A stretch of 45,072 bases of DNA from Bacteroidales bacterium (GTDB taxonomy: Bacteria; Bacteroidota; Bacteroidia; Bacteroidales; UBA932), in the NCBI GenBank assembly GCA_012515395.1, contig JAAYYL010000017.1, positions 1 to 45,072 on the forward strand, in the 5' to 3' direction. The notes beneath the pieces are model-generated. The model was not told the origin of the DNA. It made no database searches and saw nothing but the letters and a program-made list of their open reading frames with translations. Position 1 is the stretch's first letter. Every line of letters starts with the position of its first letter. Shown here in pieces: positions 6,699 to 29,206 of this stretch. A program made the position numbers and the translations under genes.

Positions 6699-7235
6699 TC
6701 AATCTATTACGTAAAGGTCTTTGTATTGTCTTCCCAGATTGTTGTAATCCAGACCGTATCCTACAACAAAATCGTTGGGGATCTTGATGCACGCATAATC
6801 TATGGGAATATCTGCCTTGTAGGCGTCAGGTTTCAACAGAAGGGTGCAAATCTTTATTTGTTTGGGATTTCTTGTTTTCAGATCTCCAAGCAGGTTGGAG
6901 ATGGTAGTTCCGCTATCTACGATATCTTCCAGCACAATGACGGTCCTGTCTTTAATGTCACTGCACAAACCCAGCACCTGGCGGACAGTTCCGGTACTTT
7001 CGGTTCCGCTGTATGAAGAAAGTTTGACGAAAGTGACTTCGCAATTGAGCGTAATTTTCTTCATCAGATCTGCCGTAAACATGAATGACCCGTTAAGTAT
7101 ACTAAGGAATACGGGTTTTTCTTCGTTGCTCAGATCCCGGTTCAGTTGTCCGGCTATGCGGGAAATAGCTTTGTCAATTTCCGCATACGGGATATATGTC
7201 CGGAAAGTTTTGTCTTGAAGGGTTATGCGTTCCAT
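6699..7235 (-). CDS. hpt: Hypoxanthine phosphoribosyltransferase
   Basis: Purine salvage enzyme that converts hypoxanthine or guanine plus PRPP to IMP or GMP. The PRPP loop is EDIVDSGTT (103-111). The flexible-loop region with SSYSGTESTG lies at about 73-82, and a VGYGLDYNNLGR segment near the C-terminus is typical of bacterial HPRT. The length of 178 residues is normal. It is the first gene of the leftward operon hpt-adk-obg-PAP2-lplA and is divergent from purE, a purine synthesis gene. A perfect TAnnTTTG box ends 4 nt before the ATG, so the mRNA may be leaderless at this gene. Confidence 0.96.
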   Translation of the reverse strand: MERITLQDKTFRTYIPYAEIDKAISRIAGQLNRDLSNEEKPVFLSILNGSFMFTADLMKKITLNCEVTFVKLSSYSGTESTGTVRQVLGLCSDIKDRTVIVLEDIVDSGTTISNLLGDLKTRNPKQIKICTLLLKPDAYKADIPIDYACIKIPNDFVVGYGLDYNNLGRQYKDLYVID

Positions 7236-7239
7236 GGAA

Positions 7240-7247
7240 CAAAAATA
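7240..7247 (-). promoter_or_regulatory. Candidate -7 box for hpt operon (TATTTTTG)
   Basis: On the minus strand TATTTTTG matches the Bacteroidetes -7 consensus TAnnTTTG exactly. Only four bases (TTCC) separate it from the hpt ATG at 7235, which would place the transcription start at or next to the initiation codon. I see no good TTTG -33 element 19-21 nt upstream. Confidence 0.45.
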
Positions 7248-7252
7248 ATGAT

Positions 7253-7260
7253 TAAATTTG
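7253..7260 (+). promoter_or_regulatory. Candidate -7 box for purE (TAAATTTG)
   Basis: TAAATTTG matches TAnnTTTG and ends 21 nt before the purE ATG, leaving a normal short leader. It lies back to back with the hpt box in a 46-bp divergent region. No TTTG -33 element is evident at the right spacing. Confidence 0.4.
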
Positions 7261-7281
7261 AACTTTTAACAGCAATAGATC

Positions 7282-7791
7282 ATGAATCCTCAAGTCAGCA
7301 TCATCATGGGCAGTTTATCGGATATGCCGGTAATGGAAGAAGCGGCCCGTTTTCTTGAACAAATGGAAATCCCTTTTGAAATCAATGCCCTTTCGGCACA
7401 CAGGACGCCGGACAAAGTTGCGGATTTTGCCAGAAATGCATCCCAAAGAGGCGTTCGGGTGATCATTGCCGGAGCCGGTGGGGCGGCTCACCTTCCCGGA
7501 GTCATAGCAGCTTATGCTGATATTCCGGTTATCGGAGTGCCCGTTAAGTCTTCCAACTCGTTGGCCGGATTGGATTCCATATTATCCATTCTTCAAATGC
7601 CCGCAGGAATTCCGGTTGCCACCATGGCATTGGACGGGGCACGCAACGCAGCGATTTTTGCTGCCGGTATCCTGGCCCTGGGAAATCAGGAGCTGGCTGC
7701 AAGGATGAAAGATTTCCGCAGTTCACTAACAAGAAAAGTGGAAGAAGCGAATGAATCCATCAAAAAGATCCAATACAGGTACAAGATCTGA
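7282..7791 (+). CDS. purE: N5-carboxyaminoimidazole ribonucleotide mutase
   Basis: Converts N5-CAIR to CAIR in de novo purine synthesis. The active-site blocks are GSLSD (10-14), SAHRTP (38-43) and GAGGAAHLPG (64-73), followed by SLAGLDSILSILQMPAGIPV. This pattern is the class I mutase type rather than the class II AIR carboxylase. The length of 169 residues is typical. It is divergent from hpt across 46 bp, so the region controls both synthesis and salvage. The downstream outer-membrane protein gene starts 54 bp later, probably on the same transcript. Confidence 0.97.
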   Translation: MNPQVSIIMGSLSDMPVMEEAARFLEQMEIPFEINALSAHRTPDKVADFARNASQRGVRVIIAGAGGAAHLPGVIAAYADIPVIGVPVKSSNSLAGLDSILSILQMPAGIPVATMALDGARNAAIFAAGILALGNQELAARMKDFRSSLTRKVEEANESIKKIQYRYKI

Positions 7792-10720: not shown

Positions 10721-10763
10721 TGAATTGAATGTTCAAAAATAAGAATATTTGTGGTATTTGTAG

Positions 10764-10771
10764 TATATTTG
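10764..10771 (+). promoter_or_regulatory. Candidate -7 box for parA operon (TATATTTG)
   Basis: TATATTTG matches TAnnTTTG and ends 28 nt before the parA ATG. It is the third of three TATTTGT copies (10746-10752, 10755-10761, 10766-10772). No TTTG -33 element stands 19-21 nt upstream. On the minus strand TATTTTTG at 10733-10740 could serve the lipid kinase gene. Confidence 0.4.
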
Positions 10772-18385: not shown

Positions 18386-18393
18386 TATCTTTG
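18386..18393 (+). promoter_or_regulatory. Candidate -7 box for NtrC-like regulator (TATCTTTG)
   Basis: TATCTTTG matches TAnnTTTG and ends 20 nt before the ATG at 18414. An AAAGAGGA purine run lies in the short leader and could act as a ribosome binding site. No -33 TTTG is present at 19-21 nt. Confidence 0.4.
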
Positions 18394-22500: not shown

Positions 22501-23142
22501 GCTCAGGATGGTGAACAACACTCCGTCATCTTTGCCGAAAACGATGAATCCCTCGTCAAGATTTAACGGTACTATGGAGCAATGGCCGGGCAATCTCAGA
22601 TCCCTGTTGACCCTGGATTCCACAAAATTGTTGCTGAAAGGGAAATCGGTCCTGATCAGGATACCGGTGATTATAGTAACCTCCTCCCCGGAGTATGCCC
22701 TGACAACATACCAGGCACTGCCAAGATTCAGATACTGTTCTGTCTGATCCACTCCTGACAACGGTTGATGCATGCTTGTGTTCCTGGAAAAAAAGGAAAA
22801 ATTGGGGAACATGGCCCCCGGGCTGTAACTGTCGTTAATGATGGGGAAGGTGTTGATCCAGGAAATCAGGCTGTCCTTATAATACTTATAGATGACCATG
22901 TCCTGATCCACATCTTTGCCTGAGAGATCCGCAACGGCTTCCTTTTCCAGTTCACGCAAAGCAACTGCCTCAATGGTATTTTGTTTGCGGTGTATGACTT
23001 TTTCCACATTTACCAATCGCATCATGCGACGGTTGTGTGATGTCAGTTCAAAAAAAGACAATACCAGGCATAACACCGAAATGATCAGTGGTATAAGGAA
23101 TTTTCTCTTCCGTATCTTTTCCGGCAGTGTCGGTATCTTCAT
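19576..23142 (-). CDS. Large NtrY-like sensor histidine kinase
   Basis: Membrane sensor kinase of 1188 residues. A first TM (about 14-32) and an extracytoplasmic domain (about 33-224) are followed by a cluster of about six TMs (225-432), a second extracytoplasmic region (about 435-680), two more TMs, a periplasmic sensor segment, a last TM and HAMP (about 898-955). The kinase core follows: H-box AHEIKNPLTP with phospho-acceptor H978, N-box NLLSNAVQ (N1093), G1 DNGPGV (D1123) and G2 GTGLGLA (from 1147). The H-box HEIKNPLTP resembles NtrY. It overlaps rlmH by 4 bp, and the convergent regulator at its 3' end by 8 bp. The signal sensed is unknown. Confidence 0.93.
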   Translation of the reverse strand: MKIPTLPEKIRKRKFLIPLIISVLCLVLSFFELTSHNRRMMRLVNVEKVIHRKQNTIEAVALRELEKEAVADLSGKDVDQDMVIYKYYKDSLISWINTFPIINDSYSPGAMFPNFSFFSRNTSMHQPLSGVDQTEQYLNLGSAWYVVRAYSGEEVTIITGILIRTDFPFSNNFVESRVNRDLRLPGHCSIVPLNLDEGFIVFGKDDGVLFTILSDTSMQTYSEGVFLRWIAIAMALLAMLMFYFRNRQVVFAMTLIAGLCMLRFLTYVYSSYLQLDILFFSPLLFAGGPMENSLAAMILNTLCVSIGAWAVYLARSDLGNIRQNLKRPFRLLTDGLIVSSSTGILLLIHHTLKALTMDSNIVLELFKLDEITWYTIVAYVAVALLFLSLFLLIRTLLSVNRIPGTSFFNGNRFTYLFVFIAALYSLLTVSMYGKEKELNLYKVWTQKMSIERDLELEMQLRRVEERIAIDPILSVMIQMEQDYDLILSRIRETYFQDFLQKYQIQITICEPGDVLIVAGLPRPVSCYQFFHSELLRNGTPLAEDSRFYNIDNKLGNISYIGVFTYYSYSGSQDLYIELDSRYIKDALGYPSLLSDRSQLDRFKLPYDHSYAKYIDDRLVSNSGKYVYASKLSEPPREGFSSRKEDRSFHFMYKTGNKVLTISRPLRTPVPYLVSLSYLFLFYGLIFAVALGLLKENDLRINLPRNSFRRKITFLLVGLLVVALVLMAVGSIGFGLKLYEETNNRQMQDQMDAAKASLEEYIRFADRTPDPMENVVELMNTINRLSSNIQIHVNLYDPHGRLMRSSQPEIFERHLLGARMNWEAFRMMHLEERPQYIQTERIGSLTYYSMYAPLYNTHGDLVAYINIPYLSGQTDVTKDTSSIVAAIVNLYLLLLLGAVFVSFTFSNQITRPLAELEEKISRLDVTRQPEHIHYNSDDELGVLVNAYNKMADDLNESTKRLAQSEREQAWREMARQIAHEIKNPLTPMRLSIQHLIRLKQEGSPKWLEHFDKIVASLLEQIEILSNAASEFSNFSRFNTEDPVDVDLNALIREQMILFSTFENIRIHFESDVRHALVKVRRTQWVSVLVNLLSNAVQSVQEQTIGVISIQLKDEGETYLISVADNGPGVSPENYHKLFKPNFTTKSKGTGLGLAICRGIVEQYRGEIFYTSSEWGGACFNVRIPKQPVI

Positions 23143-23612
23143 TCGTGGTGGTAGGCTTCTCCCTTAATGATCGTAAAACATCTGTAAAATTGTTCCATAC
23201 ACAATAAACGTACCAATTGGTGCGGAAAAGTCAGAGAAGACAAAGACCACGTCTCCTGTGCCCTTTCCCTTACCTGGTTTGAAAATCCGTATGGTCCACC
23301 CACAGCAAAAACAAGCGTGCGGGTTCCTTTTTGCATGTGTTGTTCAATTTGGAACGACATTTGCTTGGATGTACAAGTGCTGCCCTTCTCGTCAAAAAGT
23401 ACCAGATGGTCTCCCGGTTTGATGTTTTTTAACAGCAAAAGGCCTTCTTTCTCTTTGATCTGTTGGCAGGACAATGAAGAAGTGTTCTTTACATCGGGCA
23501 ATTCCAAACGCGTAAAACGAACGTAGTGACCCAATCGTTTTTCATAGTCCAGGATGCCTTCCAGCAGGTACTTTTCCTGCGTTTTGCCAATGCAAAGCAA
23601 CACCATGTTCAT
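23139..23612 (-). CDS. rlmH: 23S rRNA pseudouridine-1915 N3-methyltransferase
   Basis: SPOUT-class methyltransferase that modifies pseudouridine 1915 in helix 69 of 23S rRNA, using SAM. It has the N-terminal CIGKTQEKYL, the knot segment FAVGGPYGFS and the C-terminal IIKGEAYHHE, all characteristic. The length of 157 residues is typical. The start could be Met1 or Met3. A TACTTTTG box ends 4 nt before Met1, which suggests a leaderless mRNA. It is followed by the histidine kinase gene with a 4-bp overlap, and is divergent from the DUF4783 gene. Confidence 0.95.
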   Translation of the reverse strand: MNMVLLCIGKTQEKYLLEGILDYEKRLGHYVRFTRLELPDVKNTSSLSCQQIKEKEGLLLLKNIKPGDHLVLFDEKGSTCTSKQMSFQIEQHMQKGTRTLVFAVGGPYGFSNQVRERAQETWSLSSLTFPHQLVRLLCMEQFYRCFTIIKGEAYHHE

Positions 23613-23616
23613 TAGA

Positions 23617-23624
23617 CAAAAGTA
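23617..23624 (-). promoter_or_regulatory. Candidate -7 box for rlmH (TACTTTTG)
   Basis: On the minus strand TACTTTTG matches TAnnTTTG exactly and is separated from the rlmH ATG at 23612 by four bases. Transcription would then start at or beside the ATG. No clear -33 element. Confidence 0.45.
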
Positions 23625-27369: not shown

Positions 27370-27377
27370 CAAAGATA
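27370..27377 (-). promoter_or_regulatory. Candidate -7 box for prs operon (TATCTTTG)
   Basis: On the minus strand TATCTTTG matches TAnnTTTG and ends 21 nt before the prs ATG. The box lies in the 45-bp gap between engB and prs. No TTTG -33 at the right spacing. Confidence 0.4.
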
Positions 27378-27393
27378 ATAAGAAAATGGACAA

Positions 27394-27993
27394 TCACCCG
27401 TTTTCCTCGAGTACAGATTCCATATATTCCAGAAGTTCTTCTCTGCCCCAAGCCGTTTTGGAAGATGCGGCAAATATCGGGGGAAGGGGTTCCCAATATT
27501 GGGACAAGGTTTCATGAAACGCATCGGTTTGATTTTGCAAAGCCGTTTTGGATAATTTGTCCGCTTTTGTCAGCACCAACGCAAAAGGAATTTGCCATGA
27601 ACCCAGTTTTAAAAGAAATTCCAGATCGATTTTCTGCAACGGATGCCTGCAATCCAAAAGTACAAAAAGCAGCACCATTTGAGGAGTGTGCTGTATGTAA
27701 TTCCGGATCATGATTTCAAGACTTGCCCTGAGTGTTTTGGAAATTTTGGCGAACCCGTAGCCGGGAAGGTCTGTAATGATCCATTTTCCGTTAATCAGAA
27801 ACTTATTGATGCATTGTGTTTTTCCCGGTGTGGACGAGGTGTGTGCCAGTCCTTTTGTTTTGCATAACATGTTGATGAGGGAAGATTTTCCCACATTGGA
27901 TCTTCCAATGAATGCAAATTCAACCGGGGCCTCTGCAATAAGTCCTTCTGTTTTGGTAAAGCTTCCCAGGAATGTGGCCTGATTTATTTCCAT
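27394..27993 (-). CDS. engB: Ribosome biogenesis GTPase EngB/YsxC
   Basis: Small GTPase for 50S subunit assembly. I place the start at 27993 (MEINQATFLGSF), the usual family N-terminus; an upstream in-frame Met at 28041 would add 16 residues and lie in the divergent xseA promoter. Motifs: P-loop GRSNVGKSS (30-38), G2 region SSTPGKTQ, G3 DLPGYGFAK, G4 TKADK. The length of 199 residues is normal. It is a single leftward gene, divergent from xseA, with a near-consensus TATCTTAG box 4 nt before the ATG. Confidence 0.94.
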   Translation of the reverse strand: MEINQATFLGSFTKTEGLIAEAPVEFAFIGRSNVGKSSLINMLCKTKGLAHTSSTPGKTQCINKFLINGKWIITDLPGYGFAKISKTLRASLEIMIRNYIQHTPQMVLLFVLLDCRHPLQKIDLEFLLKLGSWQIPFALVLTKADKLSKTALQNQTDAFHETLSQYWEPLPPIFAASSKTAWGREELLEYMESVLEENG

Positions 27994-28027
27994 GAGGCTA
28001 AGATAACGTTTTTCTGAGATTTTAACG

Positions 28028-28035
28028 TAAATTTG
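28028..28035 (+). promoter_or_regulatory. Candidate -7 box for xseA operon (TAAATTTG)
   Basis: TAAATTTG matches TAnnTTTG and is separated from the xseA ATG at 28040 by four bases (TAAC). A leaderless mRNA is predicted. The divergent engB has a one-mismatch box (TATCTTAG, minus strand 27998-28005), also 4 nt from its ATG. Confidence 0.45.
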
Positions 28036-28039
28036 TAAC

Positions 28040-29206
28040 ATGGAGAGGTTGGATCTGATTGATTTGCAAAAGCGTTTGGAACAAGCTGTTAATGACGCTT
28101 TTAAAGAGCCCTGCTGGGTGCGGGCTGAAATTAACAGGATGGATGTGCGTAACGGCCACTGCCACCTGGAGCTGGTCCAGAAAGAACCTCAAACAGACAG
28201 ACTGCTTGCTAAAGCACAAGCTGTAATCTGGGCCGGTGTTTTTTCCATGCTCGGACCTTTCTTCAGAACAACTGCCGGCATGGAGCTTCGTGCAGGATTA
28301 CAGGTGTTGTTATGCGTGGAACCCCGTTTCCACGCACTCTATGGAATGAGCCTGGTTGTGAGTGATATAGATCCTTCCTATACATTGGGAGGGCTGGAGA
28401 TGGAAAGACGCAAAACGCTGGAACGGCTTGAAAAAGAAGGCATCCTTAACATGAACAGGGAATTGCCTTTTCCACGCCTGCCGCGAAGACTGGCCGTCAT
28501 ATCTTCCCCTACGGCAGCAGGATACCAGGACTTTACCAATCACCTGGAGGCTTCCTCTTTTGGGTTCATTTTACGGTTGTTTCCGGCACTTATGCAGGGA
28601 AGCGAAGCTCCCGAAAGCATCATAAAGGCCATGGAACAGGTGGCCGATGCTTCAGTTCCTTTTGATCTGCTGATCCTGATAAGGGGGGGAGGTGCCGTTG
28701 CTGACCTGCATTGTTACGACAATTACGATCTGGCTGCTCACATAGCGCAGTTCCCACTGCCGGTAATTACCGGGATTGGCCATCAAAGAGATACCCACAT
28801 AGCAGACAGGGTAGCTGCTTTATCGCTGAAGACCCCCACAGCAGTAGCGGATTTTTTGGCAGGCCTGATGGAACAGGAAGAAGACAGCCTTATCCAATTG
28901 TCTCACCGGCTGGAACGTGCCGTCCACAACCGTATCAGTCGCGAAAAGCAAGATCTGCTGCATATGATAAAAGACATTAAAGGTGCCGTCAGATGGCTAA
29001 TACAGCAGCATACCCATACATTGGACATACTGGAGGAGCGCATTCGCAAAAACAATCCGCTGACATTGCTGGAAAAAGGCTATTCCCTGACATTGTGTGC
29101 GGGAAGAACCGTACGCGATGCATCCGCGCTCAAAGCCGGTGACAAAGTACATACCGTCCTTAGAAAAGGGGCTTTTGATGCAACGGTGGAAAATATTGAA
29201 CAATAA
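28040..29206 (+). CDS. xseA: Exodeoxyribonuclease VII large subunit
   Basis: Catalytic subunit of the single-strand exonuclease ExoVII. The N-terminal OB fold (about 1-100) contains CWVRAEINRMDVRNGHCHLELV. The nuclease domain includes LPRRLAVISSPTAAGYQDF, the block ILIRGGGAVADLHCYDNYDLA and the signature GIGHQRDTHIADRVA. A coiled-coil-rich segment (about 275-345) precedes the C-terminal NPLTLLEKGYSLT. At 388 residues it is slightly short for the family (usually 400-460). It is followed 6 bp later by xseB. It is the first gene of the long rightward run that reaches the glycogen cluster. Confidence 0.95.
   Translation: MERLDLIDLQKRLEQAVNDAFKEPCWVRAEINRMDVRNGHCHLELVQKEPQTDRLLAKAQAVIWAGVFSMLGPFFRTTAGMELRAGLQVLLCVEPRFHALYGMSLVVSDIDPSYTLGGLEMERRKTLERLEKEGILNMNRELPFPRLPRRLAVISSPTAAGYQDFTNHLEASSFGFILRLFPALMQGSEAPESIIKAMEQVADASVPFDLLILIRGGGAVADLHCYDNYDLAAHIAQFPLPVITGIGHQRDTHIADRVAALSLKTPTAVADFLAGLMEQEEDSLIQLSHRLERAVHNRISREKQDLLHMIKDIKGAVRWLIQQHTHTLDILEERIRKNNPLTLLEKGYSLTLCAGRTVRDASALKAGDKVHTVLRKGAFDATVENIEQ

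Follow-up and report, generated by a model that had tools for sequence, protein, structure and literature searches.

Promoter boxes lying 3-7 nucleotides before start codons predict leaderless mRNAs in a lineage of uncultured Bacteroidales

Shine-Dalgarno sequences are ignored in Bacteroidota, and experimental work on Bacteroides and Flavobacterium led to the conclusion that leaderless translation, being rare, cannot be the reason. The stretch of DNA analysed here (45,072 nucleotides, hereafter the window) carries in front of four genes the promoter word TAnnTTTG, perfect or with one mismatch, only four nucleotides before the ATG, which raises the question of whether transcription of these genes starts right at the ATG. 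The window corresponds to contig C91 in a metagenome assembly of 1.55 Mb (79% complete), and the nearest hpt sequences found belong to genomes of uncultured Bacteroidales, among them WOFB08, Rikenellaceae bacterium DTU002 and ADurb.Bin037. The reading that we favour, with a probability of roughly 0.86, is that these boxes belong to ordinary sigma-ABfr-type promoters whose -7 box is held at a fixed 3-7 nt (mostly 4-5) before the ATG, and that they would produce leaderless or nearly leaderless mRNAs.

Gene calls were made mechanically in this analysis and the identities of the window genes are backed by Pfam matches. As an earlier note made from the sequence alone had claimed, hpt, rlmH and xseA each display a perfect TAnnTTTG box and engB one with a single mismatch, all 4 nt before the ATG; the coordinates agree, and the box is the -7 element of sigma-ABfr promoters (more strictly TAHHTTTG):

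7240..7247, minus strand: hpt box TATTTTTG, perfect -7 element, 4 nt before the ATG at 7235-7233
7236..7239, minus strand: hpt spacer TTCC, the 4 nt from box to ATG
6699..7235, minus strand: hpt, phosphoribosyltransferase (PF00156), predicted leaderless
23617..23624, minus strand: rlmH box TACTTTTG, perfect, 4 nt before the ATG at 23612-23610
23139..23612, minus strand: rlmH, SPOUT methyltransferase (PF02590), predicted leaderless
28028..28035, plus strand: xseA box TAAATTTG, perfect, 4 nt before the ATG at 28040
28040..29206, plus strand: xseA, exonuclease VII large subunit (PF02601), predicted leaderless
27998..28005, minus strand: engB box TATCTTAG, one mismatch, 4 nt before the ATG at 27993-27991
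27394..27993, minus strand: engB, YihA-type GTPase (PF01926), predicted leaderless

The start of engB is set at 27993 by conservation and homology, the mechanical open reading frame beginning at 28041. That mechanical frame overlaps the ATG of xseA (shared CATG), and automatic annotation may overlap both genes. The start codons of hpt and purE (7236-7281) and those of engB and xseA (27994-28039) are both separated by 46 bp, which is probably a coincidence.

A second group of genes, purE, prs and an NtrC-like regulator, had been assigned spacings of 20-21 nt in the same note, and these were found to be 21, 21 and 20 nt, respectively. Two further boxes, absent from that note, precede a diacylglycerol-kinase-like gene (13 nt) and a parA-like gene (28 nt):

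7253..7260, plus strand: purE box TAAATTTG, leadered class, 21 nt before the ATG and separated by 5 bp from the hpt box, which faces the other way
7282..7791, plus strand: purE, AIR carboxylase (PF00731), identified by Pfam
27370..27377, minus strand: prs box TATCTTTG, 21 nt before the ATG, leadered class
18386..18393, plus strand: box TATCTTTG of the NtrC-like regulator, 20 nt before the ATG, leadered class
10734..10741, minus strand: box TATTTTTG of the diacylglycerol-kinase-like gene, 13 nt before the ATG, in the sparse valley between the two classes
10764..10771, plus strand: box TATATTTG of the parA-like gene, 28 nt before the ATG, leadered class

The true start of the diacylglycerol-kinase-like gene may be a later ATG, situated 12 or 30 nt downstream of the called one. 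Over the whole window, TAnnTTTG occurs 32 times for 32.3 expected, that is at chance level, so raw counts are uninformative and the signal resides in the position of the boxes. The close arrangement TAHHTTTG-N2-6-ATG is found five times, two of them (24078 and 42001) away from gene starts. No Rfam element was found in the window.

Positions were analysed over a 582-kb part of this genome (contigs C1-C68, with and without matches): in every long open frame, each in-frame ATG close to the beginning was taken and its distance d to any TAHHTTTG was measured. Boxes at d=3, 4, 5, 6 and 7 nt numbered 7, 11, 12, 6 and 6, against about one expected per position, giving a total of 42 for 5.2 expected (Poisson P ~5e-24). 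They are followed by a sparse valley at d=8-16 (13 boxes in total) and by a second, broad class at d=17-35 (55 boxes). The peak near 4 nt implied by the earlier note thus exists, with a mode of 4-5 nt, and so do its two promoter-to-start classes, one close and one near 20 nt, separated by the valley; its "exactly 4 nt" holds for the four genes and not for the genome, where the peak at 4-5 nt spans 3-7 nt. No comparable peak at d=3-7 was present at out-of-frame ATGs or at GTG and TTG codons of this genome, the latter remaining near background, as expected if leaderless mRNAs start with AUG. In the leadered class, too, GTG and TTG starts show no peak, which makes the preference for AUG weak evidence for leaderlessness. 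In the whole genome, TAHHTTTG-N2-6-ATG was counted 154 times and the reversed pattern 60 times; as the reversed pattern underestimates the background of ATG-anchored counts, whole-genome ratios were instead compared between spacings and between genomes.

The close spacing is conserved. For hpt, TATTTTTG followed by 4 nt and ATG is found in 8/8 nearest relatives, with TTCC or TTCT as spacer and its length fixed. The distance is also 4 nt for rlmH in 8/8 relatives, for xseA in the 7/7 relatives whose 5' end is intact and for engB in 7/7, where the box is TATCTTAG, TACCTTCG or TAACTTTG; for these four genes, the spacer letters change among relatives and the length is constant. The leadered spacing of purE (d=21) is kept as well, in 7/8 relatives, so that a fixed spacing is not by itself the mark of the 4-nt class, which is distinguished by the combination of bimodal distances, a sparse valley and a short spacing retained in relatives. 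Farther away, the hpt box lies mostly 18-29 nt from the ATG in Bacteroides, Phocaeicola and similar genomes, and that of rlmH at d=5 in the more distant GWF2_40_14 and at d=24 in B. cellulosilyticus. The orthologues of hpt and rlmH therefore differ in promoter-to-start class between lineages.

These differences extend to the overall share of the close class. Counted on perfect boxes in the 582 kb, the excess over background is 36.8 for the close and 35.2 for the leadered class, so that about half of the near-start perfect boxes of this genome belong to the close class, an estimate that covers perfect boxes only. The same counting gave 3 close against ~90 leadered boxes (~3%) in Bacteroides-type loci, which are redundant and all surround hpt, and 0 close against 13 leadered in a genome of the same order (G238). 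The ~3% agrees with the 3.7% of leaders shorter than 10 nt measured in B. thetaiotaomicron (PMC7366714), which supports the method. Per position, the ratio of close to leadered pattern counts over whole genomes is 1.28-1.50 in eight relatives versus 0.63-0.85 in the Bacteroides-type genomes compared. Among 42 Bacteroidota genomes it is mostly near 1, and it reaches 2.2-4.6 across five genomes of one family (f25). A search with PF02327, meant to show whether f25 belongs to Chlorobiaceae, matched nothing in f25 or elsewhere and so does not bear on that placement. Sampled contigs of this family (loci L248-L277; genomes G101 and G136) have a G+C content of ~57% and few boxes overall, most of which are 3-7 nt before an ATG. 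In two f25 genomes, 25 of the 30 close-box ATGs inspected open frames of at least 80 codons, and several of the N-termini resemble, as judged by eye, PurC, PolA, PhoB, GuaA and MurA. Leaderless initiation from sigma-ABfr boxes is quite probably a main mode of gene start in several separate lineages of Bacteroidota, including this Bacteroidales clade and, more strongly, f25.

Most transcription starts mapped by RNA-seq in F. johnsoniae follow the same box by 4 or 5 nt (PMC6847099), so that a box 4 nt before the ATG would set +1 at the A of the AUG. RNA polymerase would start 4-5 nt past the box and the RNA would begin at this A or 1-2 nt earlier; boxes at d=5-7 would leave leaders of 0-3 nt, and those at d=6-7 possibly 1-3 nt. 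The ribosome carrying the initiator tRNA would then directly recognise the 5'-terminal AUG. What the analysis shows is where the boxes lie, the statistics of their positions, which motif they carry, their conservation among relatives and how lineages differ; from this we infer at which base transcription starts and how the mRNAs are translated. The genome would accordingly hold a leaderless class (d=3-7) and a leadered one (d ~17-35), the intermediate distances (d=8-16) corresponding to leaders of ~3-12 nt that are largely avoided, possibly because they would be too long for recognition of a 5' AUG and perhaps not long enough for the usual binding of the 30S subunit. Weak second promoters may also lie farther upstream of the close boxes.

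The close class could have arisen as a passive by-product of genome compaction, short divergent gaps squeezing promoters against start codons without functional meaning. The genomes of the nearest relatives are indeed small (1.4-2.5 Mb) and many close-box genes are located in divergent gaps of 38-66 bp, but compaction alone would spread the boxes evenly, whereas distances of 8-16 nt are sparse, and the class is even stronger in two f25 genomes of 2.6 and 3.3 Mb. We consider this explanation unlikely, though worth keeping in mind; it would moreover account for the origin of the class without denying that the mRNAs are leaderless.

An alternative of much lower probability is that the motif next to the ATG is a translation signal, a U-rich ribosome site of non-Shine-Dalgarno type within a longer leader transcribed from an upstream promoter. 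Bacteroidota lack Shine-Dalgarno sites and have been described with AT-rich upstream signals (PMC9581028, PMC3160421), and gene-start software describes them as having AT-rich ribosome sites (PMC9581028). The full promoter word is needed, however: among gapped words of the form XYnnWXYZ preceding in-frame ATGs, TAnnTTTG ranks first de novo at d=3-7 (59 vs 11.8), whereas TTTG without TA is not enriched at these distances (47 vs 52), a result hard to reconcile with a plain U-rich site for the ribosome. The word ranked second, TAnnTTCG (5 vs 0), precedes engB in two relatives. The identical word is also used by the class 17-25 nt away, and a T-rich tract located 3-8 nt ahead of the box is common to close boxes and to those at 17-25 nt and missing from intragenic boxes, so that close and leadered boxes look like the same promoter type. 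Genomic context is a further argument against a translation signal, as 31/57 close-box genes are at divergent starts, against 175/660 of all genes. Close-box genes also seldom follow another gene tightly within an operon: 9/57 have a co-directional gene no more than 20 nt upstream, against 279/660 of all genes.

The boxes share with the primary promoter of Bacteroidota (sigma-ABfr) the -7 word, the avoidance of G at its two free positions and the AT-rich upstream tract. They differ from it in their placement relative to the ATG, which is another one in Bacteroides, and in the -33 TTTG, for which no enrichment was detected 12-29 nt upstream of the boxes of either class. This element is likewise not evident in F. 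johnsoniae (PMC6847099) and is consequently an unreliable criterion.

The least probable alternative, that the annotated starts are wrong and the true ones lie downstream behind ordinary leaders, could invoke the additional in-frame ATG at codon 3 of rlmH in this genome, but only the first ATG of rlmH and xseA is conserved across relatives, the conserved domain of RlmH (PF02590) starts at residue 1 and those of other close-box genes at residues 1-5 (GalE-type epimerase, PurD, PurN, RuvX, Ham1, KdsB-type, LMWPc and LysR), and the histogram still gave a single sharp peak on all in-frame ATGs.

Leaderless mRNAs and the TAnnTTTG promoter are both known, and what is new is a lineage-specific and much expanded use of a known mechanism. 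Leaderless mRNAs account for 5.5% in F. psychrophilum (PMC9723704), and leaders of at most 10 nt for 13% in F. johnsoniae (PMC6847099). These low-frequency cases resemble those described here by a short or absent leader, here predicted from box position, downstream of the same box, and differ from them in that the close class here makes up around half of the near-start perfect boxes and is conserved for named housekeeping genes throughout the clade. Of the 37 Bacteroidetes/Chlorobi genomes covered by one survey, a leaderless signal was reported in one (2.4%), the search having been limited to TATAAT-like boxes (PMC3160421). The leaderless-rich Actinobacteria and Deinococcus similarly combine a promoter box at a fixed distance with an ATG at or near +1, but with a different sigma factor and a different box, a Pribnow box ~10-12 nt before the start (PMC3160421). 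No report of a leaderless-rich lineage of Bacteroidota was found in the literature searched, subscription papers and preprints being outside the search.

The data indicate that the leaderless share varies by lineage within Bacteroidota, from ~3% up to around one half or beyond. In this Bacteroidales bacterium and its relatives, roughly one in two recognisable housekeeping promoters lies at the start codon, an arrangement that the phylum's model species seldom use. If leaderless initiation is indeed a main mode in several separate lineages, the idea of almost exclusively leadered mRNAs in Bacteroidota would hold for the model genera and not for the phylum. As the class varies among lineages and orthologues, the choice between leadered and leaderless mRNA becomes testable within one phylum and with one promoter word. 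The close box also offers a practical rule for locating gene starts in uncultured Bacteroidota, for which gene finders model an AT-rich ribosome site instead of a start-codon promoter.

Among the first 100 genome matches, nine divergent pairs display close boxes at both starts, with start codons 26-53 bp apart. The divergent gaps located were 7236-7281 and 27994-28039 in the window, and L002:11245-11287, L010:8997-9036, L064:3993-4047, L080:18597-18636 and L082:9382-9421 in other loci. With gaps of 26-53 bp, the upstream contacts of each promoter would fall within the opposite gene, and the two polymerases should exclude each other.
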